NCBI RefSeq assembly: GCF_012273515.2
Contig: NZ_CP050975.2
Coordinates: 1,054,001-1,118,000 of the forward strand
Reading direction: 5' to 3'
DNA: 64,000 nt
DNA from: Streptomyces sp. RPA4-2
Lineage (GTDB): Bacteria > Actinomycetota > Actinomycetes > Streptomycetales > Streptomycetaceae
Both the position numbers and the translations under genes were made by a program. The first letter of the stretch is position 1, and every line of letters starts with the position of its first letter. Shown piece after piece: positions 5,076 to 20,633 of the stretch. The notes under the pieces were generated by a model, which saw only the letters and a program-made list of their open reading frames with translations, was not told the origin of the DNA and ran no database searches.

Positions 5076-5543
5076 GGTGGTGCGTCCTGCGCGGGGAGCG
5101 GGTGCGCACCGTGACCTCCAGGCACCTCAGCGTACGCCGATAGCGCCTTCCAGGGAGCCCTTCCGGCCGCTGACGAGCGGATCTTTCGTCAATTCCGTGC
5201 GGCGGACGCGGACTTCCCTTCCCGTGGGGTTGACGGACCCCGCGCACGCCGTTCCGGCGGGCCGGCGAACACTTCGGCGAGCGGCATGTTCACGTGCCGA
5301 CACGGGGACCTCTGATCCCCGCTTGATCGCCGTCCTCGATCACGGATCCCCCGTCCCCGAGGACGGCACGGGGTCCGGGCGTTTCGGCGATCCGGGACGC
5401 ATCACGATTCGTGATCGGTGCCAGATCGGATTGCGTCTTGGACAGTCCCCGGCCCGGTGTTGGACTGGATCCGCGGCGGTTCCCCGGCCCTGAGGCCCGG
5501 GACCGTACGGCATCAGTTCAACCTCGATCCACCGGAGAAGACC
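5076..5543. other. Divergent intergenic region, LAL regulator / tautomerase
   Basis: No credible gene. It holds a 9-bp inverted repeat (arms 5330-5338 and 5358-5366, CCGTCCTCG / CGAGGACGG) and a perfect LysR-type palindrome at 5401-5415. Promoters for both flanking genes are expected here but no convincing -35/-10 pair could be assigned. Confidence 0.6.
5401..5415. promoter_or_regulatory. Candidate LysR-type operator (T-N11-A palindrome)
   Basis: ATCACGATTCGTGAT is a perfect 7-bp inverted repeat around one T and contains the T-N11-A core typical of LysR regulator boxes. It lies 129 bases ahead of the tautomerase start, in a cluster that includes a LysR gene at 7354. The assignment to that regulator is inference. 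Confidence 0.55.
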
Positions 5544-5741
5544 ATGCCTCTCATCCACGTGCAGCAGACCCCCGGCAAGACCGCCGAGCAGAAGGCCCAG
5601 CTGGTCCGTGACCTGACCGACGCGTATGTGCGGGCCACCGGCAGCAAGCCGGAGAGTGTGTGGGTGACGGTGCAGGAGATCGGTACCGACAGCTGGTCGA
5701 TCGCCGGCGAGACGCTCGCGGCCCGAGCCGCCAGGCGCTGA
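5544..5741 (+). CDS. 4-oxalocrotonate tautomerase family protein
   Basis: A 65-residue protein starting MPLIHVQQTPGKTAEQKAQL. The proline directly after Met is the catalytic base of the tautomerase superfamily once Met is removed, and the length fits the 60-80-residue 4-OT subunits, which assemble as hexamers. ATG 5544 has GGAG six bases upstream. The C-terminal part (VWVTVQEIGTDSWSIAGETL) is also family-like. Members ketonise enols or dehalogenate; the substrate here is unknown. It is followed after 146 bases by an exporter on the same strand and preceded by a LysR-type palindrome, so it may belong to an inducible detoxification unit. Confidence 0.85.
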   Translation: MPLIHVQQTPGKTAEQKAQLVRDLTDAYVRATGSKPESVWVTVQEIGTDSWSIAGETLAARAARR

Positions 5742-5818
5742 CCCCACGGACCCGCCGGACGTCCTCGGCAGGACGGCGCCCGGACTCCCCGATCGGGCCG
5801 GACGGCCGGGGCGGAGAT

Positions 5819-5845
5819 CGCCCGGACGCCGGCCCCCTCCGGGCG
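5819..5845 (+). terminator. Possible hairpin between tautomerase and exporter
   Basis: CGCCCGGA (5819-5826) and TCCGGGCG (5838-5845) form an 8-bp stem with an 11-base loop, 26 bases before the exporter's ribosome binding site. It could be a terminator or a partial attenuator. Confidence 0.35.
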
Positions 5846-5887
5846 GGTCCGCCCCCGGCCCACTCTTGACCAAGGAAGTCGTCCGTC

Positions 5888-7171
5888 ATGAAGACCGCAT
5901 CGACACGCACGCCCTACGCGCTCCTGCTCGCCGTTCTGTGCTCGTTGAACGCCGGTGGGCTGTTTGCCTCCGACATCAATCTGCCGGGTGTGCCGGCCAC
6001 CGCGCACGCCTTTCACACCCCGGTCGCGTCCGTGCAATGGACGTTCAGCGCGTTCATGATCGGCATCGCGGTCTCCCAGGCGGTCTACGGGCCGGTTTCG
6101 GACGCGTACGGACGCAAGGGCGTCATCGTCTCCGGGCTCGGACTGTTCGTCGTGGCCTCGCTGGTGTGCGCGGTGGCGCCCACGGTCGAGGTGTTCGGCG
6201 CCGGCCGGCTCCTCCAGGCACTGGGCGCCGGGTCGGGCATGGTCCTCGGCCGGGCCGTGATCAGCGACCTGTACGAGGAGAGGGACGCGGCCCGGATGTT
6301 CGCCACGGTCATGCCGATCGTGGGTGTCTCCCCGTCCGTCGCTCCCCTGGTGGGCGGCTATCTGACCACGTACGTCTCCTGGCGCGCGGCGTTTGTGGTG
6401 ACCGCCCTGCTCGGCCTGGTGACGCTGGTCGTGATGATCACCTCGATCCCCGAGAGCCTGCCGCCGGAGCGGCGCAGCAAGCACCTCGGCACCACGCTGA
6501 GGGGCTATCCGAAGCTGCTGACCCGTCCGCTGTTCTGGGCGTACACGATCAACCTGGCGGTGGCGTACGGCGGTTACTTCGGCTACCTGGCCGCCTCCCC
6601 GCTCGTCTTCGAGAAGATGGGCCTGGCCACCCAGACCACCAGTTACTGCTACATCACCGTCTCGATCGCGTACGTCGCGGGCAACCTGACCTCGCGCACC
6701 CTGGTCCGCGCGCGGCCTGTCGACCGACTGCTGTGGATGGGCCACGGATTCTTTCTCGCCGGTGCGCTGATGATGCTCGGTCTGGGGCTGAGCGGGGCCG
6801 GCCGGCCCTGGGGTCTGCTGGTCCTGGTGTTCATGCCGGTGATGACCTTCGGCAACGGCTTCCTGCTGCCGTTGTCGATGAGTGCGGGGGTGACGACTTT
6901 CCGCTCGACGGCGGGATCGGCGTCCGGCCTGATGGGCGCCCTCCAGTTGCTGGCCGCCTCACTGGGAATCTTCCTCTCCAGCCGACTGCCGGCGGGCGAC
7001 CTCTCCGCCCTGGGCTGGTTCGTCGTGGCCGCCGCGGTTCTGGGAACGGTCGCCTTCGCTTTCTTCCTTTCCCTGGCGGCGCGGCGGCCCTCCACTCCGC
7101 AAAGGCATGACGGCGAATTCCGCGGCGCCGGTGCGGAGGCCGGTGATCTGCAGGGAGTTACCGCCGACTGA
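5888..7171 (+). CDS. MFS drug-efflux transporter, Bcr/CflA type
   Basis: A 427-residue integral membrane protein with about twelve hydrophobic segments. The MFS motif A between helices 2 and 3 is clear (GPVSDAYGRKG, residues 68-78). The early SDINLPGVPATAHAF and the later GAGSGMVLGRAVISDLYEE match the Bcr/CflA (DHA1) proton-coupled efflux group. ATG 5888 is preceded by AAGGAAG. Between a tautomerase and a LysR gene it is probably an inducible exporter of a small organic compound, perhaps the product or toxic substrate of the neighbouring pathway; that link is inferred from position only. Confidence 0.88.
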   Translation: MKTASTRTPYALLLAVLCSLNAGGLFASDINLPGVPATAHAFHTPVASVQWTFSAFMIGIAVSQAVYGPVSDAYGRKGVIVSGLGLFVVASLVCAVAPTVEVFGAGRLLQALGAGSGMVLGRAVISDLYEERDAARMFATVMPIVGVSPSVAPLVGGYLTTYVSWRAAFVVTALLGLVTLVVMITSIPESLPPERRSKHLGTTLRGYPKLLTRPLFWAYTINLAVAYGGYFGYLAASPLVFEKMGLATQTTSYCYITVSIAYVAGNLTSRTLVRARPVDRLLWMGHGFFLAGALMMLGLGLSGAGRPWGLLVLVFMPVMTFGNGFLLPLSMSAGVTTFRSTAGSASGLMGALQLLAASLGIFLSSRLPAGDLSALGWFVVAAAVLGTVAFAFFLSLAARRPSTPQRHDGEFRGAGAEAGDLQGVTAD

Positions 7172-7353
7172 AGGTAATCAGGGCAGTGAATAAATACCTG
7201 CGCCGATGAATGAAACCGCACAACTGCGAGAGCGGGCCCGCCCGGTGGCGGGTGCCGTCGACCGGTGTGCGAGGATTCTCCCGCGGCGATCCCGCGAGCA
7301 TGAATGTTTCACCGTTCAATAATAAGGATCGCCCTGATCGGTGGGGGGATCCC

Positions 7354-8256
7354 GTGGAACTGCGTCAGATTCAGTACTTCGTCACCGTTGCCGAGGAGCT
7401 GCATTTCGGCAGGGCGGCCGAGCGGCTGCACATCGGCCAGCCCGCGGTCAGCCAGCAGGTGCGCCGACTGGAGCGGGAGCTGGGCACCCAGCTCTTCGAC
7501 CGTTCCGGTCGCACCGTGACCCTCACCCCGGCCGGCCACGCCCTGCTGCCCGAGGGCCGCGAACTACTGAAGGCGCGGGACTCCTTCGCCGCCACGGCGC
7601 AACGGCTCACCACGCGGAGCGCCGCCGCCTTCCGCGTCGGCATCAGCTCCGCCCTGGGGCCCCGGCTGGACGACTTCCTGGACGCGCTGCCCGACCGCGG
7701 CGCCGGCACCCGCTTCGAGTTCCAGACCCTCGACGCCCGCACGCGCCTGGAAGAAGTAGGTGCCGGACGGCTGGACGCGGCCTTCGTCCGCGGCCTCGAA
7801 CACGCTCCTGGCCTGCGACTTCTCGGCCTCTGGCACGATCCGCTGCTGGTCGCGCTGCCCGCCGCGCACGCGCTGGCCGCACGCCACCGCCTGGAGCTGG
7901 CCGATCTGGCCGGGCTGCCCTTGCGCATCGCCTCCCGCGGGGAGAACGCGGTGCTCTTCGACACCGTCGTCGCCGCCTGCCGCGCAGCGGGTTTCGAGCC
8001 GACCTTCGGCCCGCCCTCCACCCGGCTCCAGGACACCCTCGCCGAGATCGGCGCGGGCGCGGCCGGCTGGACCCTGGTGTACCCGACAGCGGCCAACACG
8101 GTGTCCTCCCGCCGAATCTCCCTGCTTCCACTCATCGGGGATCCCCTCACCATCCGCATGTCGCTCGCCGTACGGGAAAACGCCGACCCGGTACGCCTGG
8201 AGTTGCTGACGGCAGCAAGTGCACGGGTTCGGCGGAAAGTCGCGGAGGAGAACTGA
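7354..8256 (+). CDS. LysR-family transcriptional regulator
   Basis: A 300-residue LTTR. The winged helix-turn-helix occupies about residues 1-60 (MELRQIQYFVTVAEELHFGR, then QPAVSQQVRRLERELGTQLF), followed by a substrate-binding co-inducer domain from about 90 to the end. GTG 7354 is chosen because the family almost always begins MELRQ and a purine-rich GGTGGGGGG precedes it. It sits between the exporter and the five-gene operon on the same strand and is the obvious candidate regulator of one or both. Possible targets are the T-N11-A palindrome at 5401 and the palindrome at 8476. Confidence 0.92.
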   Translation: MELRQIQYFVTVAEELHFGRAAERLHIGQPAVSQQVRRLERELGTQLFDRSGRTVTLTPAGHALLPEGRELLKARDSFAATAQRLTTRSAAAFRVGISSALGPRLDDFLDALPDRGAGTRFEFQTLDARTRLEEVGAGRLDAAFVRGLEHAPGLRLLGLWHDPLLVALPAAHALAARHRLELADLAGLPLRIASRGENAVLFDTVVAACRAAGFEPTFGPPSTRLQDTLAEIGAGAAGWTLVYPTAANTVSSRRISLLPLIGDPLTIRMSLAVRENADPVRLELLTAASARVRRKVAEEN

Positions 8257-8475
8257 GTGAGCGGACATGGCGAACTCTTTACCCTCTCGTTGATCTTCAC
8301 TTGAGGACATGCGATACGTTATGAACAGACGAACTTCCGGCTTACGCCTCGCCGATGTGCTTTCCGGCTGAAAAGTATGGGCAGTTGAACCGTGAAGTTC
8401 GCCAACGGGGTGATGTGATGTGGGATGCCGCTTGCGGAAAATCCCACCGGAATAACAGCGTGTTGAATCCCAGGC

Positions 8476-8503
8476 AATCCGTCGCGTCATGTCGCGACGG
8501 ATT
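8476..8503. promoter_or_regulatory. Long palindrome ahead of the five-gene operon
   Basis: AATCCGTCGCG (8476-8486) and CGCGACGGATT (8493-8503) are perfect 11-bp arms around TCATGT, 50 bases upstream of the first operon gene, in a 297-base gap of unusually low GC for this window. It could be an operator for the LysR or another regulator, or a late terminator of the LysR gene. Confidence 0.5.
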
Positions 8504-8553
8504 CACACGCGGCTGTCACCCCGCCAACTGCATGCGCCATACATGGAGGGGTA

Positions 8554-9486
8554 ATGATCGTCAATCTTGATGTGACGCTGCGCGACGGGGGCTACCGCAA
8601 CAACTTCGACTTCCCGCTGGACTACGCACTGCACCACGCACGTGAGAGCGTCGCCGCCGGCATGGAGTGGGTCGAGATCGGCTACCGCAACGGCTCGTTC
8701 AAACCCAAGCCAGGGATCGGCCGTACCGGCGTGGGCGCCGACGACTACATACGCGCGGTCGCCGAGGTCGTCTCCCCCGACCGTCTCTGCATGATCCTGC
8801 ACCCGAAGAACATCACCGAGGACGACCTGCCGCGCATGTACGACGCCGGCGTCCGCCTCATCCGGTTCTGCCTGCCCTCCGGCGCGCCGGAGCACGGGCT
8901 CGCCCTGCTCTCCCAGGCCGGCGGTCTGGGCTTCACCACCACCGTCAACATCACCCGCGTCAGTCAGCTGGACCGGCGCCGACTGGTCGAACTCGCCGCG
9001 CTGTCCGGCGACGCCGGCGCCGACGTGGTCTATCTGGCCGACTCCAACGGCAGCATGCTGCCCCGCGAAGTGACCCAACTGGTCACCCTGGTCCGCTCGG
9101 TGACCGACGCGGCCATCGGTCTGCACGCACACAACAACCTCGGCCTGGCGCTGGCCAACGCCATCGCGGCCGTCGACGCGGGAGCCACCTGGATCGACTC
9201 CTCCATCCTGGGCATGGGCAAGGGTCCGGGCAACCTGGTGACCGAGCAGTGGCTGGCCTACCTCGGCCGGCGCGCCGACACCGACGCGTACGACCTCGGC
9301 CGGATCCTCAGCCTCGCCCACCGCATGGAGTCCCAAATCGCGGAAGCCACGCCCTCGCTGCCACTGCCCGACCTGGTCCTGGGGCACTTCGACCTCTCCG
9401 TCGAGGAACGCGCCAAGCTCCCCGTGGACCGGATCGGCGACGCGTTCTCGGCGGCCCGCGAACTGACCGCGGCGGGCGCCCGGTGA
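8554..9486 (+). CDS. DRE-TIM metallolyase (HMGL-like aldolase, catalytic domain only)
   Basis: A 310-residue TIM-barrel aldolase. The N-terminal signature DVTLRDGGYRNNFDF (from residue 6) supplies the metal-binding Asp and catalytic Arg. HAH at 191-193 is the second metal motif, and GMGKGPGN at 220-227 matches the family glycine loop. It has the length of the aldolase-catalytic-domain proteins related to 4-hydroxy-2-oxovalerate aldolase but lacks the DmpG C-terminal communication domain. Such enzymes cleave or form C-C bonds between pyruvate or acyl-CoA enolates and a carbonyl. ATG 8554 follows GGAGGGG. It is the first gene of the coupled operon; its stop overlaps the next start (GTGA). Confidence 0.88.
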   Translation: MIVNLDVTLRDGGYRNNFDFPLDYALHHARESVAAGMEWVEIGYRNGSFKPKPGIGRTGVGADDYIRAVAEVVSPDRLCMILHPKNITEDDLPRMYDAGVRLIRFCLPSGAPEHGLALLSQAGGLGFTTTVNITRVSQLDRRRLVELAALSGDAGADVVYLADSNGSMLPREVTQLVTLVRSVTDAAIGLHAHNNLGLALANAIAAVDAGATWIDSSILGMGKGPGNLVTEQWLAYLGRRADTDAYDLGRILSLAHRMESQIAEATPSLPLPDLVLGHFDLSVEERAKLPVDRIGDAFSAARELTAAGAR

Positions 9487-10334
9487 CGTCGCGTCCCCCG
9501 GGGCCGGCGCTCACTGCCGCGCCGGCCCCGGCCCTCGCCGTGCTGGGCGACGCCGACGCACCGCGCCACGCGGTCGTTCTCTCGCCCGTCATGCCCCGCT
9601 GGGACCACGGCTCGTTCTTCCACCAGGTCGCCGAACCGCTGCTCACCTCAGGACACCGGATCACGGTCTACGACACCCTGTCCTTATTGCGCGACGGTGA
9701 CGACCTCAAGGCCCTCGTGGACCGCTGGGGGCGCCACCTCGCACCGCACGCCGACGGTGCGTACGGTCCGTCCGCGGCCGTGGCCCCCGACCTGCTGGTC
9801 GGCAATGCCCTGGGCGGCGCCGTCGTCCAGGCCCTGCTCACGCACGAGTGGACCCATCACGCCAAAGTGCTGCTGCTTTCCGGCCCCACCGTCGCCGACG
9901 ACGAGCTGGACACGAAACTGGAACGTATCGCCGCCGCCGTCCAAGCCCAGGGCCTTCCCTCGGCGCTGCGACTCCTCGAAGAGGCCGTCCGCGGCCCCGG
10001 CCGGCAACCCGGCGCCACCACCCTTCCGCGCACCGAGCCCGACGCCGGTCAACCCACCGATCCCGAAGAGGAGTTGGCAGGCCGACGGCTGTCCGCCGGC
10101 CTGCGGCTGCTGCACGCGGCCGATGTCCGCGACCCTGTACGGGACTTCCCGGGCGCCCTCCTGCACGTGTACGGCGAACGGTCCCTGCTCGTCCAGCGCA
10201 AGCACCTGGCCACCGGACCCCGCCCGCGGCACCACCTGACGGGCGTGCCGCAGGCCGGAATGCGCCCCCACGCCGACCGGCCCGCCCTCACCCGCGACAC
10301 CATCACCCGCTTCCTGGGAGCTGAACACTCATGA
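9483..10334 (+). CDS. Alpha/beta-hydrolase-like protein without nucleophile serine
   Basis: A 283-residue protein whose layout suggests an alpha/beta-hydrolase fold: HAVVLSPVMPRWDHGSF as an oxyanion-loop-like start, then LLVGNALGGAVVQALL at the nucleophile elbow. The usual Gly-x-Ser-x-Gly is GNALG here, with Ala109 where the serine should be. The C-terminal QAGMRPHADRP also departs from the usual catalytic-His context. It may be a non-hydrolytic binding, lyase-like or structural partner. GTG 9483 overlaps the preceding stop by four bases, so translation is coupled. Codon 68 (9684-9686) is TTA, the rare bldA-dependent leucine codon. Fold assignment is moderate; no function can be named. Confidence 0.6.
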   Translation: MTSRPPGPALTAAPAPALAVLGDADAPRHAVVLSPVMPRWDHGSFFHQVAEPLLTSGHRITVYDTLSLLRDGDDLKALVDRWGRHLAPHADGAYGPSAAVAPDLLVGNALGGAVVQALLTHEWTHHAKVLLLSGPTVADDELDTKLERIAAAVQAQGLPSALRLLEEAVRGPGRQPGATTLPRTEPDAGQPTDPEEELAGRRLSAGLRLLHAADVRDPVRDFPGALLHVYGERSLLVQRKHLATGPRPRHHLTGVPQAGMRPHADRPALTRDTITRFLGAEHS

Positions 10335-12550
10335 ACCGCAAGACCGTCGCAGTCCTGCCCGGCGACGGAATCGGACCGGAGGTCCTGGACGCCGCGCTGC
10401 CGGTGATCGAGACACTCGGCCTGCCCGTCGACCTCGAGTTCGGTGACATCGGCTGGGAGTACTGGCGGACCGAGGGCAACCCCGTCCCCGACCGCACCTG
10501 GGACCTGATCGGCCGCAGCGACGCCGTGCTGCTCGGCGCCACCACCAGCAAGCCACGCCGCGAGGCCCTCGCGGAGCTGGCTCCCGAACTGCGTGCGTCC
10601 GCCCCGCAGTACATCTCGCCCATCATCCAACTCCGGCAGCGTCTCGACCTGTTCGCCAATCTGCGACCGGTGGAGAACTACCTCGGCGGCGGCACCCCGT
10701 ACCGCTTCTGCGTGGTCCGGGAGAACACCGAGGGCCTGTACGCGGGCCTGGACTGGAACCACGTACCGGACGAGATGTGGCCGCTGGTCGCCGACCACCC
10801 CAACGTCCGCCGCAGCGGCCGCCAGGGCGCCACGGCCAGCGTTCGGCTGCAGACCTCGCACGGCCTGGACCGCATCCTGCGCTTCGCCTTCGAGACCGCC
10901 CGCGGACACGGCCACGAACGGGTCACCCTCGCCGACAAGCCCAACGTCCTGCGGCACAGCAGCGCGTACGTCCTGGAACGGCTGGAGGCGATCGCCGCCG
11001 ACTACCCGGAGATCCCCTTCGAGGTCCTCAACGTGGACGCGGTCGCCCTGTGGATGGCACGCCGCCCGGAGCGCTTCGGCGTGATCGTCGCCGAGAACAT
11101 GTTCGGCGACATCCTCTCCGACCTCGGCGGCGGCGTGATGGGCGGACTCGGCCTGGCGCCCAGCGCCAACATCGGTGAGACCGGCAACTACTTCGAGCCG
11201 GTGCACGGCAGCGCCCCGGCGATGGCCGGACACGGGCGCGCCAATCCCGCCGCGGCGTTCCTCACCATCGGCCTGTTGCTGGAGCACCTCGGCTTCGAGC
11301 ACGAGGCGCGTGGTGTCCGGGACGCCGTACGCCATGTCACCCGCCGGCGCGACCGGGTCACTTACGACCTGGGCGGCGGCGCCACCACCACCGAGGCGGC
11401 CCAGGCGGTCATGGACGCCTGCCGCGAGGTCCCGCACGCCCCGACCTCTGCCGTCGTCACCATCGGGGACGAGCTGCTCCGCGGTGATCTGGAGGACTCC
11501 AACGCCCGTGTCGCCTCGCGGATGCTCGCCGAGCGCGGCATCCCGGTCCGCGTCCGCCACACCATCGGCGACGACGAGGCCGGCATCGCCGACGCCATCC
11601 GTCCCTCCCTCGGCCGCGACGACGTGATCGTGGTGATGGGCGGGCTCGGCCCCACCTCGGACGACGTGACCCGCGGTGCCGTCGCCCGCGCGCTGGGACG
11701 CCCGCTCGAACACCGCGAGGAGGCGTGGCAGGGGGTCGTGGACCGCCTCACCCGATTCGGCGTCGCCATCCACGACGACAACCGCCGTCAGGCACTGTTC
11801 ACCGAGGGCGCCGACCTGCTGCCCAACCTCAACGGTTCTGCCTGGGGCTGCCGGACCCAGGCGCAGGAAAGCACCGTGATCATGCTCCCCGGACCGCCGC
11901 GCGAATGCCTTCCGATGCTGGAGTCCGTGCTGCGCGACGGCCTCGCGCACCTCCCCGACCCCCCCGAGGTGACCGCCGTCTTCCGCCGCACGCTCGGCCT
12001 CATCGAAGCGGACGCGGCGGCCCTCGTCGACGAACTCGTACGGGACAGCGGTGTACCGGTCAAACCCGCGTACCGCTGGCACTACCCGTACGTCGACATC
12101 CGACTCGGCTGCCCGCCCGAATCCGCCGACGTCATGGGCAAGCGCCTGGACACGGCGCTCGCCGACCACATCGTCACCGACCGGGACCGCACCGCAGTCC
12201 AGGAGCTGGCGCTTCTGCTCGACGAGCGCGGCCTCGTCCCGGACATCGACGACCAGCTCACCGGGGGCGTCCTCGCGGCCGAACTGACCCGCGCGCACCG
12301 AAGCGGCGAAGGCTCGGCCTCACTCGGCGTCTCCCTCTCCGGCGTCTGGCACGGCGGGGACCGTACGACCTACACCGGAACGGTCGCCGTCACCTGCGTC
12401 GTCCGCGACGAGACCGGCGAGCGCGCCTACACGTCGACCGTCCCCCATCGCGGGGCCGAAGTCACCACCTACTTCACCGAGTTCGCGGCATGGTCCCTCA
12501 CCCGGCACCTCATCGGCCGCTCCCACCCCCTCACGGAGGAATCCGCATGA
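10331..12550 (+). CDS. Isopropylmalate/isocitrate-type dehydrogenase fused to CinA
   Basis: A single 739-residue frame with two families in tandem. Residues 1 to about 366 form a beta-decarboxylating dehydrogenase: GDGIGPEVLDAALP, LRQRLDLFANLRPVENY, VVRENTEGLYAG, ADKPNVL, ENMFGDILSDLGGG and EPVHGSAPAMAGHGRANP. These keep the catalytic Lys and metal Asp residues and suggest NAD use. After only about six residues a CinA N-terminal (MoCF-fold) domain begins: TIGDELLRGDLEDSN from 377, GGLGPTSDDVTRGAVA from 437, then LPGPPREC. The C-terminal CinA domain is degenerate: where NMN deamidases have AESCTGG it reads DDQLTGG (640-646), placing Gln642 at the serine position. ATGA overlaps couple it to both neighbours. 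I know of no characterised fusion of this kind. Confidence 0.9.
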   Translation: MNRKTVAVLPGDGIGPEVLDAALPVIETLGLPVDLEFGDIGWEYWRTEGNPVPDRTWDLIGRSDAVLLGATTSKPRREALAELAPELRASAPQYISPIIQLRQRLDLFANLRPVENYLGGGTPYRFCVVRENTEGLYAGLDWNHVPDEMWPLVADHPNVRRSGRQGATASVRLQTSHGLDRILRFAFETARGHGHERVTLADKPNVLRHSSAYVLERLEAIAADYPEIPFEVLNVDAVALWMARRPERFGVIVAENMFGDILSDLGGGVMGGLGLAPSANIGETGNYFEPVHGSAPAMAGHGRANPAAAFLTIGLLLEHLGFEHEARGVRDAVRHVTRRRDRVTYDLGGGATTTEAAQAVMDACREVPHAPTSAVVTIGDELLRGDLEDSNARVASRMLAERGIPVRVRHTIGDDEAGIADAIRPSLGRDDVIVVMGGLGPTSDDVTRGAVARALGRPLEHREEAWQGVVDRLTRFGVAIHDDNRRQALFTEGADLLPNLNGSAWGCRTQAQESTVIMLPGPPRECLPMLESVLRDGLAHLPDPPEVTAVFRRTLGLIEADAAALVDELVRDSGVPVKPAYRWHYPYVDIRLGCPPESADVMGKRLDTALADHIVTDRDRTAVQELALLLDERGLVPDIDDQLTGGVLAAELTRAHRSGEGSASLGVSLSGVWHGGDRTTYTGTVAVTCVVRDETGERAYTSTVPHRGAEVTTYFTEFAAWSLTRHLIGRSHPLTEESA

Positions 12551-13245
12551 CCACCGCCGCTCCCGTGGGGACCGAAGCCCTGCGCGAACGCATGGCCGGG
12601 CTCGACACGGCCGCCCTCTCGGACGCCATGGACAGCCTGCGCACCCCGCCCGGCGTGCTGCCCGGCATCGCGGCGCGCACCCCCGGCAGCATCGCCTGCG
12701 GACCCGCCTTCACCGTCCGCTACCGCGCCGTCGACGACGACACCGGCTTTCGCAACGCCGCCGACTACATCGACGACGTGCCATCCGGTTCGGTCGTCGT
12801 CGTGGACAACGGCGGCAGCCTCATGTGCACCAACTGGGGTTCCCTCCTCAGTTCCGTCGCGCTGCACCGCGGCGTCCGCGGAACGGTCGTGCACGGCTCG
12901 GTACGCGATGTGAAGGAGAGCCGCACCGCCGGGTACCCGCTGTTCAGCACCGGTGTGACGATGGTCAGCGGCAAGAACCGGGTGGTGCTGGACCGTACCG
13001 GCGCCGAGGTCGACATCGCGGGTACGCCCGTCCGTCCGGGCGACTGGATCTTGGCCGACGACAACGGCGCGCTACGCATCCCGGCCGACCTCGTCGAGGA
13101 GGTCGTCCGCCGCGCCGAGGCCGTGGAGCGTACGGAGTCCCGTATCCGGGCGGCGGCGCTAGGCGGCGACAGGCTGGACGAGGCACGCGCCCGCTTCGGC
13201 TACGCCCGTCCGTGGGAGGACAAGGGCGACCATGACGACCACTGA
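12547..13245 (+). CDS. RraA-like protein (HMG/CHA aldolase and oxaloacetate decarboxylase fold)
   Basis: A 232-residue member of the RraA superfamily, which includes 4-hydroxy-4-methyl-2-oxoglutarate / 4-carboxy-4-hydroxy-2-oxoadipate aldolases and oxaloacetate decarboxylases as well as RNase E inhibitors. The aldolase-type motif is present: NWGSLLSSVALHRGVRG, then VRDVKES with Arg120, Asp121 and Glu124 in the RD-x2-E arrangement. One departure is His116 where most members have Asp (VVHG for VVDG). This supports divalent-metal C-C lyase chemistry on a 2-oxo acid rather than RNase regulation. ATG 12547 overlaps the previous stop (ATGA), and its own 3' end overlaps the next gene by 14 bases. 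Confidence 0.85.
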   Translation: MTTAAPVGTEALRERMAGLDTAALSDAMDSLRTPPGVLPGIAARTPGSIACGPAFTVRYRAVDDDTGFRNAADYIDDVPSGSVVVVDNGGSLMCTNWGSLLSSVALHRGVRGTVVHGSVRDVKESRTAGYPLFSTGVTMVSGKNRVVLDRTGAEVDIAGTPVRPGDWILADDNGALRIPADLVEEVVRRAEAVERTESRIRAAALGGDRLDEARARFGYARPWEDKGDHDDH

Positions 13246-14122
13246 GGTCACCGGGCGGCCCAGCCCCTCGGCCTTGCAGCACGCCGGCTTCGTCGACGTC
13301 CACTACCACGTAGGTCCGGACGCGTATCTGCGCCGCCACACCGCCGCCACCGCCGGTGCGCTCTACGCCGGGCACGGGGGTTGGGTCGTCCTCAAGAACC
13401 ACCTCGGCTCGACCGCGGCCCAGGCATGGGAGGCCCGCCAACAGGGGTTGCCCGTCTCCGGCTCGATCGTCCTCAACGCCCTGGCGGGAGGATTCGACGC
13501 GCGGGCCGTGGAGCAGGCCGTCATCCAGCACGGCGAGGACAGCGGACTGCGCCTGATCGTCCATCTGCCCACGGTCACCGGCCGCACTCACCGCAGCCGG
13601 CTGACCCGCACCCCCTCCCATCCGCTCCTCGCCGGGGGCCTGCGCCCGCTCACCGTCGCCGACGACAGCCGGGTGCTGCGCACGGAGGTCCGCGAGATCC
13701 TGCGCGCCGCACGGGATCTGCCGGTGGTCGTCTCCACCGGCCACGCCGACGCCCACGAGGTGCGACTCCTGGTCGACGAGGCCGTACGGCTGGACCTGCC
13801 ACGCCTGATGCTCAACCAGCCCGCCAATCCGATGACCGGGCTGACCTGCAAGGACCTCGTGGAGGTGGCCGCCGCTGAGCAGGTATGGACGGAGCAGACC
13901 GCGCTCACCCGGCTCCTCGACTACCAGGACCTGACCGACTTCGCCGACGTCCTGTCCCTCCTGCCGAGGGTCGTCTACAGCTCCGACCTCGGCCAGCCGT
14001 CCCAGATGGACATCGGGCCGTGGCTGGAGTGGAGCCGGTCGTCCTTCCGCCAGGCCGAGTTGACTCCTGAACGGATCGTGGAGATCACCCGCACCGAACC
14101 CCTGAAGATGCTGAGCCTGTGA
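13232..14122 (+). CDS. DUF6282-type metal-dependent hydrolase-like protein
   Basis: A 296-residue protein with amidohydrolase-like features: an N-terminal HxH metal motif in VDVHYHVGPD (His24, His26), a second His cluster VVSTGHADAHEV in the middle and YSSDLGQ near the end, in the order of a metal-dependent TIM-barrel hydrolase. I recognise the pattern as the DUF6282 family, which has no established reaction to my knowledge. It overlaps the RraA-like gene by 14 bases and is the last gene of the operon, followed by a 13-bp terminator. In a pathway with two C-C lyases it could hydrolyse a cyclic or amide intermediate; that is inference. Confidence 0.72.
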   Translation: MTTTEVTGRPSPSALQHAGFVDVHYHVGPDAYLRRHTAATAGALYAGHGGWVVLKNHLGSTAAQAWEARQQGLPVSGSIVLNALAGGFDARAVEQAVIQHGEDSGLRLIVHLPTVTGRTHRSRLTRTPSHPLLAGGLRPLTVADDSRVLRTEVREILRAARDLPVVVSTGHADAHEVRLLVDEAVRLDLPRLMLNQPANPMTGLTCKDLVEVAAAEQVWTEQTALTRLLDYQDLTDFADVLSLLPRVVYSSDLGQPSQMDIGPWLEWSRSSFRQAELTPERIVEITRTEPLKMLSL

Positions 14123-14169
14123 CCGCGCTCCCGGTCCTGCCGGACGTACAGCCGGGAGGCCGGCCGTCT

Positions 14170-14201
14170 CCGGGTCCGGTGCCGCTCGGGCACCGGCCCG
14201 G
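14170..14201 (+). terminator. Terminator of the five-gene operon
   Basis: A 13-bp stem: CCGGG plus CCGGTGCC (14170-14183, one bulged T at 14175) pairs with GGCACCGG plus CCCGG (14189-14201), loop GCTCG. It begins 48 bases after the last stop codon. Confidence 0.75.
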
Positions 14202-14251
14202 GAACGGGTCACCGCTCGCGATTCCTTCTCCTCGTGCGAGGCGTCGGGTCG

Positions 14252-14285
14252 GGTCAGGTCAGGTCAGGTCAGGTCAGGTCAGGTC
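14252..14285. repeat. Pentanucleotide tandem repeat (GGTCA)6
   Basis: Six full GGTCA units plus GGTC. The repeat runs into the 3' end of the DUF397 gene, whose TGA stop (complement of 14274-14276) and last Leu-Thr codons are made of repeat units. Unit number could change the C-terminus. Confidence 0.9.
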
Positions 14286-14516
14286 GAACTCGCCCTCGCG
14301 GGCACCCGACACGAACGCGCCCCACTCGGCGGGCGTGAAGATCAAAGAAGGGCTCTCGGCGCGGCCGCTGTTGCGCATCGCGATGAAGCCCTCGACAAAG
14401 GCGATCTGGACGTCACCTCGCCCCCGGCTGCTGGACTGCCATTCCGCCTTGCTCAGGTCCAGCTCAGGCTTGTCCCAGCCCGCGAGCGGGTGTTGCTCGA
14501 TGGTGCTCTCGGCCAC
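14274..14516 (-). CDS. DUF397 domain protein
   Basis: An 80-residue protein typical of the abundant Streptomyces DUF397 family: an early AEWQSSSRGRGDVQIAFVE, then MRNSGRAESPSLIFTPAEW and FVSGAREGEF near the end. GTG 14516 is preceded by GGGAGGA at good spacing. These proteins usually lie beside an XRE-type HTH regulator (as in the bldB/whiJ-like pairs) and act in developmental control. Here no partner is adjacent, so it is an orphan copy. Its stop codon lies inside a GGTCA tandem repeat. Confidence 0.9.
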   Translation of the reverse strand: MAESTIEQHPLAGWDKPELDLSKAEWQSSSRGRGDVQIAFVEGFIAMRNSGRAESPSLIFTPAEWGAFVSGAREGEFDLT

Positions 14517-14599
14517 GTCCGTGCTCCTCCCGGTTCGTCGTCCGCCGCCAGCCTAGCGATCGGTTCCGGTGGCGGACAGGCCACGTGAGGGGGACGGTT

Positions 14600-15766
14600 T
14601 CAGGAGCTGGGCGGTTCGGACCCGACCAGCCACATCGAGAAGAACTGGGAGCCGCCTCCGTAGGCGTGCCCCAGTACCCTGCGGGCCCCTTCCACCTGGT
14701 GTTCTCCCGCCTGTCCGCGTACCTGGAGCGCCGCTTCCGCGAAGCGGATCATCCCGGAGGCGCCGATCGGATTGGTGGAGAGTACGCCGCCCGACATGTT
14801 GACGGGCAGGTCCCCGTCGAGCTCGGTCACCCCGGATTCGGTGAGTTTCCAGCCCTCGCCCTCGTCGGCGAAGCCGAGGTTCTCCAGCCACATGGGTTCG
14901 TACCAGGAGAAAGGTACGTACATTTCCACGGCGTCGATGTCCCGGCGCGGGTCCGCGATGCCGGCCTGCCGGTAGACGTCGGCCGCGCAGTCCTTGCCCG
15001 CCCGCGGGGACACGCAGTCCTTGCCGGCGAACAGGGTGGGCTCGCTGCGCATCGCGCCGCCGTGCAGCCACGCGGGCGGACGGGGTGAACGGGCCGCTCC
15101 GGCGCGGTCGGTGAGGATCATGGCGCAGGCGCCGTCCGAGGACGGGCAGGTCTCCGAGTAGCGGATCGGGTCCCAGAGCATCGGGGAGGCCTGGACCTTC
15201 TCCAGGGTGATGTCGTGTTCGTGGAGGTGCGCGTAGGGGTTCTTGAGCGCGTTGCGGCGGTCCTTGTAGGCGACCAGGGAGCCGACGGTGTCGGGCGCAC
15301 CCGTACGCCGCATGTACGCGCGTACGTGCGGTGCGAAGAATCCGCCCGCCCCGGCCAGCAGCGGCTGCTGGAAGGGGATCGGCAGGGACAGGCCCCACAT
15401 GGCGTTCGACTCGGACTGCTTCTCGTAGGCCAGGGTCAGGACGGTGCCGTGGACGCGGCCGGCGACGAGGTTGGTGGCGACCAGCGCGGTCGAGCCGCCG
15501 ACGGAGCCCGCCGTGTGCACGCGCAGCATCGGTTTGCCGACGGCGCCGAGCGCGTCGGCGAGGTACAGCTCCGGCATCATGACGCCCTCGAAGAAGTCCG
15601 GCGCCTTGCCGATGACGACGGCGTCGACGTCGGACCACGTCAGCTCCGCGTCCTCCAGGGCCCGCCGGGCCGCCTCGCGGACCAGGCCGGCGATCGACAC
15701 GTCCCGCCGGGCCGCCACGTGCTTGGTCTGGCCGACGCCTACGACGGCCACGGGCTCCTTGCTCAT
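14600..15766 (-). CDS. Ltp-type thiolase (lipid-transfer protein, Ltp3-like)
   Basis: A 388-residue thiolase-fold protein starting MSKEPVAVVGVGQTKHVAAR. Features are MLRVHTAGSVGGSTALVA at the position of the thiolase active-site segment and LPVNMSGGVLSTNPIGASG and RRVLGHAYGGGSQFFSMW near the end. This pattern belongs to the SCP2/Ltp group (Mycobacterium Ltp3/Ltp4), which work with DUF35 proteins as aldolases or thiolases in steroid side-chain breakdown. The ATG at 15766 overlaps the stop of the upstream thiolase (ATGA); more upstream in-frame codons are only shadow sequence. It is the last gene of the echA-DUF35-ltp-ltp operon. Confidence 0.85.
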   Translation of the reverse strand: MSKEPVAVVGVGQTKHVAARRDVSIAGLVREAARRALEDAELTWSDVDAVVIGKAPDFFEGVMMPELYLADALGAVGKPMLRVHTAGSVGGSTALVATNLVAGRVHGTVLTLAYEKQSESNAMWGLSLPIPFQQPLLAGAGGFFAPHVRAYMRRTGAPDTVGSLVAYKDRRNALKNPYAHLHEHDITLEKVQASPMLWDPIRYSETCPSSDGACAMILTDRAGAARSPRPPAWLHGGAMRSEPTLFAGKDCVSPRAGKDCAADVYRQAGIADPRRDIDAVEMYVPFSWYEPMWLENLGFADEGEGWKLTESGVTELDGDLPVNMSGGVLSTNPIGASGMIRFAEAALQVRGQAGEHQVEGARRVLGHAYGGGSQFFSMWLVGSEPPSS

Positions 15767-16818
15767 CGCGGATCCCCTTCGAGTACGGCGACCAGGTTCT
15801 GTTGCAGGCAGGGCCCCGAGGTGGCGTGGGCGAGCGCCCGGTCGGAGGTGCCCCGGTGGATGCGCGCGGCGGCCTCTCCGACGCGGACGAGCCCGGCGAC
15901 CATGACCGGGTTGGCCGCGAGCGCTCCGCCGGAGGGGTTGACGTCCACGTCGTCGGCGAGCCGCAGCGACTTGCGCAGGACGACCTCCTGCGAGGTGAAG
16001 GGGGCGTGCAGTTCCGCCGTGTCGACGGGCCGTTCGAAGGCCCCGGCGCGCTCGGCGGCGAGGCGGGTGGACGGTGAGTCCGTCAGGTCGCGCACGCCGA
16101 GACTGTGGGCCTCGATGCGGTGGTCGATGCCACGGATCCAGGCGGGCCGCTCGCACAGCTCGCGGGCCCGCTCGCCCGCCGCGAGGATCACCGCGGCGGC
16201 GCCGTCCCCGACCGGCGGGCAGTCTCCGGTCCGCAGCGGACGTACGACGTAGTCGCCCTGGTCCACCGAACCCCGGAGCTGTGCGTGGGGGTTGGCGGCC
16301 GCCGAGGTACGGCTGCGGGACGCGACAGCGGCGAGCGCGGGTTCGTCGGTGTCGCCCGCGTCGATGAGCGCCCGCGCCTGGAGTGCGGCGAGCGCGACCG
16401 AGTCGGGCCACAGCGGCGCGACGTAGTACGGGTCGAGCTGCCGGGTCAGGACGTCCCGTACGGAGCCGGGCGACGACTTCCCGTACGCGTACACGAGCGC
16501 GGTGTCGGCGTCACCGGTCAGGAGCTTCGTCCAGGCCTCGTACAGCGCCCACGCCCCGTCCATCTCGACGTGCGACTCGGAGATCGGCGGCCAGGCGCCC
16601 ACCCCGTCGAGCGCCATGGTGAACGAGAAGGCGCGGCCGGCGAGGTAGTCCGTCGAGCCGGAGCAGGTGAAGTCGATGTCGCTGGTCTTCAGGCCGGTCC
16701 GGTCCAGGACCTCGTGCAGGACCGGCATGAGCATCTCCACCTCGGAGAGTTCGTCGCTGGTGCGCCGGTGGTCGGTCTGCCCGAAGGCGACCACGGCGAC
16801 GTCCCTGGTGGGCCGCAT
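15763..16818 (-). CDS. Ltp-type thiolase (lipid-transfer protein, Ltp4-like)
   Basis: A 351-residue thiolase-fold protein (MRPTRDVAVVAFGQTDHRRT) with DIDFTCSGSTDYLAGRAF, a VGDGAAAVILA segment and NPSGGALAANPVMVAGLVR, all typical of the Ltp branch. Together with the next gene and the DUF35 protein it forms the usual heteromeric unit in which the OB-fold partner completes the active site. It is four-base-overlapped with the downstream thiolase and abuts the DUF35 stop, so all are one transcript. Equivalent gene order is known in M. tuberculosis (Rv3521-Rv3523). Substrate is inferred, not shown. Confidence 0.85.
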   Translation of the reverse strand: MRPTRDVAVVAFGQTDHRRTSDELSEVEMLMPVLHEVLDRTGLKTSDIDFTCSGSTDYLAGRAFSFTMALDGVGAWPPISESHVEMDGAWALYEAWTKLLTGDADTALVYAYGKSSPGSVRDVLTRQLDPYYVAPLWPDSVALAALQARALIDAGDTDEPALAAVASRSRTSAAANPHAQLRGSVDQGDYVVRPLRTGDCPPVGDGAAAVILAAGERARELCERPAWIRGIDHRIEAHSLGVRDLTDSPSTRLAAERAGAFERPVDTAELHAPFTSQEVVLRKSLRLADDVDVNPSGGALAANPVMVAGLVRVGEAAARIHRGTSDRALAHATSGPCLQQNLVAVLEGDPR

Positions 16819-17760
16819 CTACAACAGCTCCTTGTACGTCTCGTAGTCCGCGTCGGGTTCGCCGGCCGGCCGGTAGTGGTCCGGGTGACGGCTGTCCCGT
16901 GTCCACACCGGCTCCACCCGCAGCCCCATCCGTACCTGGTCGTAGGGGATGCCGCCGATCCGGCCGTGCAGCGCGAGGTCGGCGCCGTCGAGGGCGATGT
17001 GGGCGTAGACGTAGGGCACTTCGATGTCGAGGTTCCTGGCCTTGATGTTGACGATGCAGTACGTGGTGACCGTGCCGCGCGGTCCCACCTCGACCTGTTC
17101 CGCGGTGGCGACCCCGCAGGTGGGGCACGCGCCCCGGGGCGGGACGTACACCTTGCGGCACAGCGGGCAGCGCTCCCCCACGGTGCGCCGCTCGGAGAGG
17201 GCCTCGATGTAGGCGCTCTGGGCGCGGCCGGGTGAGTACACGTAGTCGAGGCGGGCGGGGGTGACGATGCCGGTCACCATGTCGGCGAACCGGCCGTCGT
17301 GAGCACCGGGTTCGTCCGGTTCGCCGTCGTAGGGTTCGAAACAGGCGATGTCCGTGACGGCCCCGGAGCGTTCGTGGGCCCAGCGCACGCGCACCCGCAT
17401 GCCGGTGCGCACGGTGTCGGGGCCGGGAGCGTCGAGGGCGTGCAGCAGGGCGGTGTCGGCACCGTCGAGTCTGACCAGGACCCAGGCGAAGGGCGTGTCG
17501 AGGGGCTGGCCCCGGCGCGGGGCGTGGTTCCAGGCCCAGGTGGTGACGGTGCCGGTGGGGGCGACCTCGACGAGGTCGCGGAGCTCGTCGGCGGTGACGG
17601 GGTCGTACTCGACGGGCGGGACGAGCGTCCTGCCGTCGGTGGTCCGTACGCCGAGGACCACCCGCTCGCGCAGACCGGTGAGGAACGCGCTCTGGACGGG
17701 GCCGAGCGAGCGGGTGAAGGGGAACTCGACGACGAGGGGGGCTTTGAGGACTTCGGGCAT
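16819..17760 (-). CDS. Two-domain DUF35 OB-fold/zinc-ribbon protein
   Basis: A 313-residue protein. The C-terminal part has a rubredoxin-like zinc ribbon CPLCRKVYVPPRGACPTCG followed by an OB fold (GTVTTYCIVNIKARNLDI). The N-terminal part repeats the OB-fold pattern (GTVTTWAWNHAPRRGQ) but has no four-cysteine ribbon. DUF35 proteins bind Ltp thiolases or MaoC-like hydratases in acyl-CoA and steroid side-chain metabolism, as in Rv3521 and the ChsH2/Ltp2 systems. Its TAG stop directly abuts the start of the next ltp gene, and it lies 50 bases after echA. A tandem protein of this size may serve both thiolases. Confidence 0.85.
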   Translation of the reverse strand: MPEVLKAPLVVEFPFTRSLGPVQSAFLTGLRERVVLGVRTTDGRTLVPPVEYDPVTADELRDLVEVAPTGTVTTWAWNHAPRRGQPLDTPFAWVLVRLDGADTALLHALDAPGPDTVRTGMRVRVRWAHERSGAVTDIACFEPYDGEPDEPGAHDGRFADMVTGIVTPARLDYVYSPGRAQSAYIEALSERRTVGERCPLCRKVYVPPRGACPTCGVATAEQVEVGPRGTVTTYCIVNIKARNLDIEVPYVYAHIALDGADLALHGRIGGIPYDQVRMGLRVEPVWTRDSRHPDHYRPAGEPDADYETYKELL

Positions 17761-17810
17761 CCCGGATGTCTCCTTCGGAGGTCAGGCGCGCCCGGGCGGG
17801 AGCTCGGGGG

Positions 17811-18611
17811 TCAGGCGCGCCGGTAGACGGGCGGGCGCTTCTCGGCGAAGGCCCGGGAACCCTCCTTGGCGTCGGCGGTGTCGAAGATCGGCCAACCGCG
17901 GGTGAGTTCGGCGGCGAGGCCCTCGGTCTCGGTCATCCCGGCGGTCTCGTACACGGACGCCTTGACGGCCTCGACGGCGAGCGGGCCGCAGGCGTTGACC
18001 CGCTCGGCGATCTCGAGGGCCTCGGCGAGCGCCGTTCCGTCCGGCACGACCCGGCCGACGAGACCGATGCGGGCGGCTTCCGCGGCCGGGTAGGAGCGCC
18101 CGGTCAGGAGCATCTCGAGGGCGTGCGTGCGCGGGATCTGGCGCGGCAGACGGACGGTGGAGCCGCCGATCGGGAACAGTCCGCGTCTGACCTCGAAGAG
18201 GCCGAAGAGCGCCGACTCGCCGGCGACCCGGATGTCGGTGCCCTGGAGGATCTCGGTACCGCCCGCGACGCAGGGTCCCTCGACGGCGGCGATCACCGGT
18301 TTGCGGGGGCGGTGGTGGCGCAGCATCGCCTTCCAGTGCAGATCCGGGTCGGCCTTCAGCCGGTCCCGGTACCGCTCGCCCTCCATGCCCTTTCCGGCCA
18401 GTGCCTTGAGGTCCATGCCGGCACAGAACGCGCCGCCCGCGCCGGTGAGCACGATCGAGCGGATCCCGTCGTCCGCGTCGGCCTCGGTCCAGCCGTCGTA
18501 CAGGCCGACCAGCATCGGCAGCGAAAGCGCGTTCTTGGCCTCGGGCCTGTTGAGCGTGAGCACCAGCGTGGCGCCTTCGCGCCGCACGGTGAGGTGTTCC
18601 GTCCCACCCAT
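17811..18611 (-). CDS. Enoyl-CoA hydratase/isomerase family protein (EchA19-like)
   Basis: A 266-residue crotonase. Landmarks are LVLTLNRPEAKNALS at the start, the oxyanion segment GGAFCAGMDLKAL, VIAAVEGPCVAGGTEI and the catalytic-region FGLFEVRRGLFPIGGST. It hydrates trans-2-enoyl-CoA in beta-oxidation. It is the first gene of the operon leading to the DUF35 and Ltp genes and diverges from an acyl-CoA synthetase. The divergent pair echA19/fadD19 is a hallmark of the mycobacterial cholesterol locus. The 177-base divergent promoter contains a near-KstR box and a perfect TCTGAC-N5-GTCAGA palindrome. Confidence 0.9.
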   Translation of the reverse strand: MGGTEHLTVRREGATLVLTLNRPEAKNALSLPMLVGLYDGWTEADADDGIRSIVLTGAGGAFCAGMDLKALAGKGMEGERYRDRLKADPDLHWKAMLRHHRPRKPVIAAVEGPCVAGGTEILQGTDIRVAGESALFGLFEVRRGLFPIGGSTVRLPRQIPRTHALEMLLTGRSYPAAEAARIGLVGRVVPDGTALAEALEIAERVNACGPLAVEAVKASVYETAGMTETEGLAAELTRGWPIFDTADAKEGSRAFAEKRPPVYRRA

Positions 18612-18634
18612 TGCCGTCCTCCCGTCGCAGGAAC

Positions 18635-18648
18635 GAGAACAGGTTGCA
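18635..18648. promoter_or_regulatory. Near-consensus KstR-like box
   Basis: GAGAACAGGTTGCA fits the KstR consensus TnnAACnnGTTnnA except for the first base. It lies 24 bases upstream of the echA start. Weak alone, but an exact match occurs at 34751. Confidence 0.35.
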
Positions 18649-18672
18649 GGAGGCGCGGAGTCAGTACAAGGG

Positions 18673-18692
18673 TTTTCTGACAGGCAGTCAGA
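18673..18692. promoter_or_regulatory. TetR-like operator in the divergent echA/CoA-ligase promoter
   Basis: TCTGAC-aggca-GTCAGA (18676-18692) is a perfect inverted repeat inside TTTTCTGA-N7-TCAG. The same pattern, with the same spacer length and flanking T-rich context, recurs at 28589-28607, suggesting one regulator for both operons. Confidence 0.6.
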
Positions 18693-18788
18693 TTTCTTCT
18701 GCGCGGGCCCTTCCCAGTTGTGGCGGGCTTTGCTCTGATGACCGTCGAGCCGAGGGGCGGCCCCGGACGTTCGGCGTCAGGAGGAGCG

Positions 18789-20462: not shown

Positions 20463-20580
20463 GCCCCGCGCCGCCCTCCCGTCCCGCGCATCGCGGACAT
20501 CGCGCACGGGATCGCGAAGAAACTGGACGCCGACCCCTTGCACGAGACGGACCGGCCTGAATTACTGATCCCGAACAGCA

Positions 20581-20598
20581 CGACCGAATGATCGGTCG
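20581..20598. promoter_or_regulatory. Palindromic operator ahead of the phenylacetate-CoA-ligase-like gene
   Basis: CGACCGAATGATCGGTCG has perfect 7-bp arms with a 4-base spacer, centred about 45 bases before the start codon. Size and spacing fit a TetR-family site such as those of PaaR-type regulators, but no adjacent TetR gene is present. Confidence 0.5.
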
Positions 20599-20633
20599 CC
20601 CGGATTGGTACGGTTGGTGAGGGAGGAGTCCCC

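Follow-up and report, generated by a model that had tools for sequence, protein, structure and literature searches.

The window analyzed here, a 64,000-nucleotide stretch of the genome of Streptomyces sp. RPA4-2 (positions 1,054,001-1,118,000 of a 9.86-Mb single-contig genome whose nearest named relatives are Streptomyces), contains five genes, designated g1 to g5, that all lie on the + strand. Each overlaps the next, by GTGA between g1 and g2, by ATGA between g2 and g3 and again between g3 and g4, and by 14 bases between g4 and g5. A transporter gene and a regulator gene precede them, and the features of the locus are as follows.

8554..9486, + strand: g1, DRE-TIM/HMGL-like aldolase of 310 aa (PF00682)
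9483..10334, + strand: g2, alpha/beta-hydrolase fold (predicted structure)
10331..12550, + strand: g3 as a whole, 739 aa, with Iso_dh (PF00180) and MoCF_biosynth (PF00994) in one protein
10331..11425, + strand: N-terminal beta-decarboxylating dehydrogenase domain of g3, isocitrate/3-isopropylmalate dehydrogenase (IDH/IPMDH) superfamily (PF00180)
11450..12295, + strand: middle domain of g3, CinA N-terminal (MoCF, COG1058-type) domain (PF00994)
12296..12550, + strand: C-terminus of g3, an 84-residue remnant where the CinA deamidase domain would be (alignment to 4ct8)
12547..13245, + strand: g4, RraA-like protein (PF03737)
13232..14122, + strand: g5, DUF6282 protein with an amidohydrolase-type TIM barrel (PF19799)
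5888..7171, + strand: major facilitator superfamily (MFS) transporter of the Bcr/CflA efflux family (TIGR00710), near g1-g5 in many relatives
7354..8256, + strand: LysR-type regulator (PF00126 and PF03466), beside the transporter and g1-g5 in close relatives
8406-8413 (CGGGGTGA) and 8516-8523 (TCACCCCG), no strand: inverted repeat upstream of g1, a possible operator pair
~14169..14202, + strand: GC hairpin without a T-tract, the reported terminator, doubtful

The original prediction had described the five overlapping genes at positions that proved correct, and its families for g1, g3, g4 and g5 are those that Pfam returns (HMGL-like, Iso_dh plus MoCF_biosynth, RraA-like and DUF6282). It had, however, missed the MFS exporter and the LysR gene; both travel with the five genes, and the unit is larger than first described.

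Recurrence and borders of the cassette

The genomes of 84,980 species were scanned with an alignment of g3, which returned 226 relatives, and the best 80 of these 226 loci were analyzed. In 61 of the 80, g1, g2, g4 and g5 are all encoded on the strand of the dehydrogenase and no more than 8 kb from it, usually in the gene order of the window, and these full-set loci span Actinomycetota, Pseudomonadota, one Bacteroidota and one Myxococcota. The five families are thus co-localized in other genomes; the absence of such co-localization is what the original prediction had named as grounds for refuting it. Counted singly, g1 is present in 69 of the 80 loci, g4 in 73 and g5 in 72. Within the window's genus, g5 occurs in 10 of 295 genomes and g1 in the same 10, the pair always within 6 kb; this co-occurrence, taken together with the 61 full loci, places the neighborhood beyond chance. 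An ordinary neighborhood of unrelated housekeeping genes could be argued from the fact that each gene comes from a common superfamily and that genes often overlap in densely packed genomes anyway, but recurrence in four phyla, the shared 10 genomes and the gene fusions counted below leave this explanation with almost no probability, and we rejected it. That the genes act as one functional unit, as had been proposed, is backed by co-occurrence, conserved neighborhood and fusions, and the best-supported statement about them is that they constitute one conserved orphan pathway.

Among the 19 incomplete loci, four stop at contig borders (L028, L031, L055, L097). In four Legionella loci (L080, L083, L092, L100) g2 was not found by tblastn, although L080 contains an open reading frame (ORF) that fits in size, position and N-terminal motif, and g2 was also not found in L046, L099 and L105. 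More genes are absent in seven Bartonella loci (L061, L062, L067, L070, L072, L073, L075) and in Parachitinimonas L074. In loci of the Pseudomonas corrugata, Burkholderia and Halomonas type, g2 and g5 stand together behind accessory genes (L078, L079, L081, L086, L090, L091, L101, L104).

The cassette has probably spread horizontally. A plasmid search returned 116 matching records, all below 60% identity, and among the 40 plasmid matches listed only that of Legionella adelaidensis (57.8%) stands out; a search for an Escherichia coli copy with a Citrobacter sequence as query gave no match.

The transporter scores 239.3 bits against the TIGR00710 cut-off of 200.9, which places it in the Bcr/CflA family, and 39 of the 80 loci have an MFS match of more than 60 bits to it. 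In L037, L038, L039 and L041 the MFS and LysR genes are inverted on the other side of g5, still adjacent. The LysR start at 7354 is a GTG upstream of the helix-turn-helix that was picked by eye, while the domain searches used a start at 7390. The cassette is probably LysR-controlled. The CGGGGTGA ... TCACCCCG pattern, which was picked after being seen, has one match in the window and none in 100 shuffles, and, counted by eye in ten aligned sequences, four match both arms exactly and all ten have at most two mismatches in either arm.

At the other end, the "one strong terminator" originally reported after g5 is not supported. No terminator-like site was returned by a scan of the + strand from 7500 to 15500, the 178-nt stretch folded here does no better than its shuffles (z −0.44), and similarity stops just past the g5 stop codon among eight aligned sequences (the window and seven relatives). 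With no T-tract behind the hairpin and no conservation of the region, we rejected a terminator at this position. GGTCA tandem units occur 3' of g5 at 14245-14285 and overlap the 3' end of a convergent DUF397 gene, the first of the genes at 14274-21938; it is followed by thiolase-C-like, ChsH2-like and enoyl-CoA hydratase genes and two AMP-binding enzymes. These downstream genes are of acyl-CoA type, and none was seen beside g1-g5 in L021 and L022. An Rfam scan of 5000-18000 returned nothing reaching a gathering score.

Proteins of the cassette

The product of g1 is a clear HMGL-type protein (108.5 bits against the PF00682 cut-off of 29) that aligns with 1nvm over residues 6-251 and best with 3dxi, a "putative aldolase". 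Like DmpG/BphI and 3dxi it has LRDG and HxH motifs, and the residues of the RD and HxH metal site are in place, with R10 and D11 in 68 of 71 aligned rows (3 gaps) and H191 and H193 in 70 (1 gap). The His that follows RDG in DmpG has a catalytic role. In g1 its position is instead occupied by Tyr14, and across the 71 rows there are 59 Tyr, 8 His (all from Legionellaceae), 1 Asn and 3 gaps. The protein also falls far below the 4-hydroxy-2-oxovalerate aldolase model (TIGR03217, 132.3 bits against a cut-off of 286), and the acetaldehyde dehydrogenase that accompanies DmpG is absent from the window's operon. With the partner absent and the catalytic His replaced, the canonical meta-cleavage lower pathway was rejected.

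The product of g2 passes no Pfam cut-off (Hydrolase_4 reaches 13.3 bits where 27 are required). Structure prediction nevertheless gives it an alpha/beta-hydrolase fold (pLDDT 89.9), with BpoC, BioH and esterases among its top 20 structure matches (E 1e-10 to 1.5e-9, TMq 0.54-0.69). The slot of the nucleophile is Ala109 in a GNALGG motif, with Ala in 58 of 71 rows, Ser in 11 and 2 gaps. We take Met260 to be the slot of the catalytic His from the usual A-G-H-x-P pattern; position 260 has M in 64 rows, T in 5, A in 1 and I in 1, position 261 has R in 70 and G in 1, and no row of the 71 has His at either. The fold of alpha/beta hydrolases is thus shared while the Ser and His of the catalytic triad are missing, in agreement with the serine-less hydrolase-like protein first proposed. 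Six residues (D64, G107, G112, R202, S234, R261) are invariant in 49 rows.

The dehydrogenase domain of g3 (258.9 bits against the PF00180 cut-off of 27) keeps the full catalytic residue set of the (homo)isocitrate, 3-isopropylmalate and tartrate dehydrogenases but scores below every curated NCBIfam cut-off shown: its top model is homoisocitrate dehydrogenase AksF2 (281.5 bits against 540 required), and tartrate dehydrogenase (212.2 against 470.4) and leuB (197.2 against 353.2) also fall short. It lacks the Arg typical of homoisocitrate dehydrogenase (HICDH), and I98/I99 stand where we take IPMDH to have Leu90/Leu91. A further difference from these enzymes is that the cassette dehydrogenase is fused to CinA-like or RraA-like domains. 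In g3 the fused domain matches PRK00549 at residues 374-655 and CinA 4ct8 with E 1.7e-27, and the motifs of the CinA N-terminal nucleotide domain, GGLGPTSDD.TR and PGPP, are intact. Whereas CinA joins a COG1058 nucleotide domain to a nicotinamide mononucleotide (NMN) deamidase, here the nucleotide domain sits behind a dehydrogenase and the deamidase is a remnant; a C-terminal LTGG..AE stretch aligns with 4ct8, and the deamidase domain PF02464 gave no match in g3 at E up to 1.

The product of g4 belongs to PF03737 (118.6 bits against 24.5), and its closest solved relative is 3k4i (E 1.1e-55), called an "uncharacterized protein" and presumably from Pseudomonas syringae. R120 and D121 are present in all 75 rows, and W97-G98 and K143-N144-R145 are characteristic; position 99 is Ser, where we assume that the RraA-family motif has Asp. 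The K-N-R and C-T-x-W-G signatures are the protein's own, unlike those of HMG/CHA aldolase and RraA, and it scores under the equivalog cut-offs (63.2 bits against the 304.5 of the aldolase model TIGR02798). It shares with both enzymes an Arg-Asp pair, equivalent to the Arg-123/Asp-124 pair of HMG/CHA aldolase, for which PMC5065237 gives a metal site with Asp-124 and Glu-199. By analogy, R120, D121 and the conserved Glu197 of g4 may form such a site, and we therefore do not read Ser99 as loss of activity.

The g5 protein has the features of the amidohydrolase superfamily, namely a TIM barrel, H-x-H, a later His and an Asp, with a predicted metal site, and six residues (H24, H26, H57, H171, E221, D252) are invariant in 53 rows. 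The barrel, H-x-H and Asp are shared with the 2-pyrone-4,6-dicarboxylate lactonase LigI and other amidohydrolases, but identity to LigI is 18% in the Foldseek alignment and the protein belongs to a separate family, DUF6282, which is not named in the open-access literature searched.

Overall, the hydroxy- and oxo-acid enzyme families of the original prediction stand, while the canonical activities are not supported, with g1, g2 and the CinA part departing at key residues. Because of these departures, and because g1, the dehydrogenase and g4 score below equivalog cut-offs, the cleavage of 2-oxo acids is something that we infer only.

Cluster forms, fusions and reduced loci

The loci take three forms. 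Form A, that of the window, has the dehydrogenase-CinA fusion, usually with the MFS gene nearby. In Enterobacter, Salmonella diarizonae, Cedecea, Lonsdalea, Photorhabdus and Bartonella L065 it is a compact MFS-g1-g5 cassette with unlike flanks, in which g1 is split in L068 and L065. Integrase-like ORFs were seen by eye near the cassette of Salmonella L059. In form B the dehydrogenase lacks CinA and accessory proteins are added, as if an oxidative step stood in for the CinA step: NMO/FabK-like, YCII/ABM and TcuA-like FAD proteins in Streptomyces-type loci, and RutF-like flavin reductase, NMO/FabK-like and RutA/SfnG-like luciferase-type proteins in Pseudomonas. Examples of this unfused form are L024 11141-14296 and L101 11831-16816. 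Form C, in Legionella, has a RimK/cyanophycin-synthetase-like ATP-grasp gene upstream of g1 (L080 7281-8321), with homologous ORFs in L082, L092 and L106, hence in all four Legionella among the 38 loci compared; it suggests that the acid is ligated to an amine.

In a fusion census of 81 loci (the 80 plus L106), the dehydrogenase frame includes the CinA part at 52 loci (in L099 and L105 a shortened version) and the RraA-like protein at 12, nine actinobacterial and three from Legionella (L076, L077, L085, L087, L088, L089, L092, L096, L097, L098, L100, L103), with neither in the remaining 17. In L031 and L095 it is RraA and DUF6282 that share one frame. Proteins fused in this way generally catalyze successive steps, which gives the order CinA, dehydrogenase, RraA, DUF6282. 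A search for the CinA part in 22 genomes found some match in 14 and none at E 0.001 in 8, so CinA as a separate partner required everywhere was rejected. In G018 (C29, 36420-37496 and 53849-58236) about 16 kb separate a stand-alone CinA-like gene of 379 aa from an unfused cluster, and an MFS-like gene was seen by eye near it.

The most reduced loci are those of five Bartonella (L061, L062, L067, L070, L072), which retain only MFS, g2 and g3, all open; g1, g4 and g5 were not found at E 0.001 in their draft genomes. Pairwise dN/dS ratios (nonsynonymous to synonymous substitution rates) among the five are 0.07-0.13 for MFS, 0.17-0.31 for g2 and 0.12-0.20 for g3, indicating purifying selection, so the exporter, g2 and g3 keep a role on their own. 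The nucleophile slot of g2 in these loci is Ser, yet the His is still missing. In Bartonella queenslandensis (L073, L075) g3 is open and g2 is broken. The product of g3, or its removal, could be useful by itself in Bartonella. Another possibility is that the cassette serves damage control or self-protection, with the exporter, g2 and the dehydrogenase-CinA protein removing a toxic acid or damaged nucleotide and g1, g4 and g5 as optional additions. The open genes at low dN/dS, in genomes where g1, g4 and g5 were not found, speak for this explanation, but most other loci keep the rest of the set (the per-gene counts above), and the Bartonella loci may be derived leftovers that have acquired a new role; we regard damage control as unlikely.

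Possible pathway and its direction

In the pathway that we would propose, the substrate of the g3 dehydrogenase would be a 3-substituted malate (or a tartrate-like acid) whose substituent is small and not a carboxylate, and its oxidation and decarboxylation would yield a 2-oxo acid. The CinA-like domain would handle a nucleotide or nucleotide-linked species. Acting next on the g3 product as a decarboxylase or aldolase would be g4, which is fused to the dehydrogenase in 12 loci. The g1 protein would act on a 4-hydroxy-2-oxo acid, making or breaking its C-C bond, g5 would open or close a lactone or similar ring, or decarboxylate, and g2 could be a non-hydrolytic alpha/beta protein that binds or isomerizes an intermediate. 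The end product would be a hydroxy or oxo acid or a lactone, and the acid itself or something derived from it would leave through the Bcr/CflA exporter. A LysR-controlled, horizontally spread cassette for one undescribed small-acid pathway whose product is exported is the reading that we prefer, at a confidence just short of even. No published description of the five-gene set was found in the open-access literature searched, and the original prediction likewise knew of no described cluster with this combination.

Whether the cassette builds or breaks its compound is harder to judge. The efflux-family transporter, the compactness of the cassette, its sparse occurrence and the ATP-grasp form favor biosynthesis and export, and the transporter in particular leans the question toward building. 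On the other hand, the catabolic kin of most of the enzymes favor degradation. A catabolic cassette would import a lactone, a hydroxy-dicarboxylate or some related acid of plant or host origin through the MFS protein, g5 would open it, g1 and g4 would cleave it, and g3 would oxidize and decarboxylate the rest into central metabolism. The nearest named relatives of g1, g4 and g5 and of the accessory proteins of the unfused form belong to catabolic families, a LysR gene adjoins the operon, and inspection by eye of the listed ORFs of 10 loci revealed no nonribosomal peptide synthetase- or polyketide synthase-type gene. Yet the transporter scores as Bcr/CflA efflux above a curated cut-off, the window-type operon has no coenzyme A or ring-oxidizing step, Legionella has an ATP-grasp ligase, and within the genus g1 and g5 are confined to 10 of the 295 genomes. 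We hold catabolism to be somewhat less likely than biosynthesis and export.

Several observations weigh against our preferred reading of an exported small acid. Nothing speaks more strongly against a strictly linear route of five steps than the reduction in Bartonella, and the retention of g3 in seven Bartonella loci lacking g4 and g5 makes it separable from its supposed next steps. Most characterized relatives are catabolic (DmpG, LigK, LigI, tartrate dehydrogenase), and the TcuA-like, RutA/SfnG-like and RutF-like proteins of the unfused form are named for catabolism. A Bcr/CflA-family transporter need not export, and 41 of the 80 loci have no MFS match above 60 bits to that of the window. 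The g1 gene is split or shortened in L043, L060, L064, L065 and L068. Substrate, product and direction are all points that we infer. In L060 and L043, g1 and g2 both appear to be shortened where they meet, perhaps by a deletion.

A more specific form of the exported-acid reading is possible, though we hold it with less than even confidence: a widespread, mobile, small biosynthetic cassette without assembly-line enzymes that exports a malate-derived hydroxy or oxo acid or lactone. In it, the dehydrogenase and a repurposed CinA nucleotide domain would form a new two-step catalyst, an alpha/beta-hydrolase fold would work without Ser and His, and tailoring would be lineage-specific, with oxidoreductases present in Pseudomonas, Burkholderia and some Streptomyces and the ATP-grasp protein in Legionella.

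The set is seen in Streptomyces, Legionella, Photorhabdus, Enterobacter, Salmonella diarizonae and Bartonella, yet few of the sampled genomes of the window's genus carry it. A cassette distributed in this way can be expected to produce or process something that counts in dealings among organisms or in some special habitat. For DUF6282, and for a CinA domain outside NAD recycling, the cassette indicates a function to seek. The fusions and the reduced Bartonella loci hint at the sequence of the reactions and open the question to direct testing.

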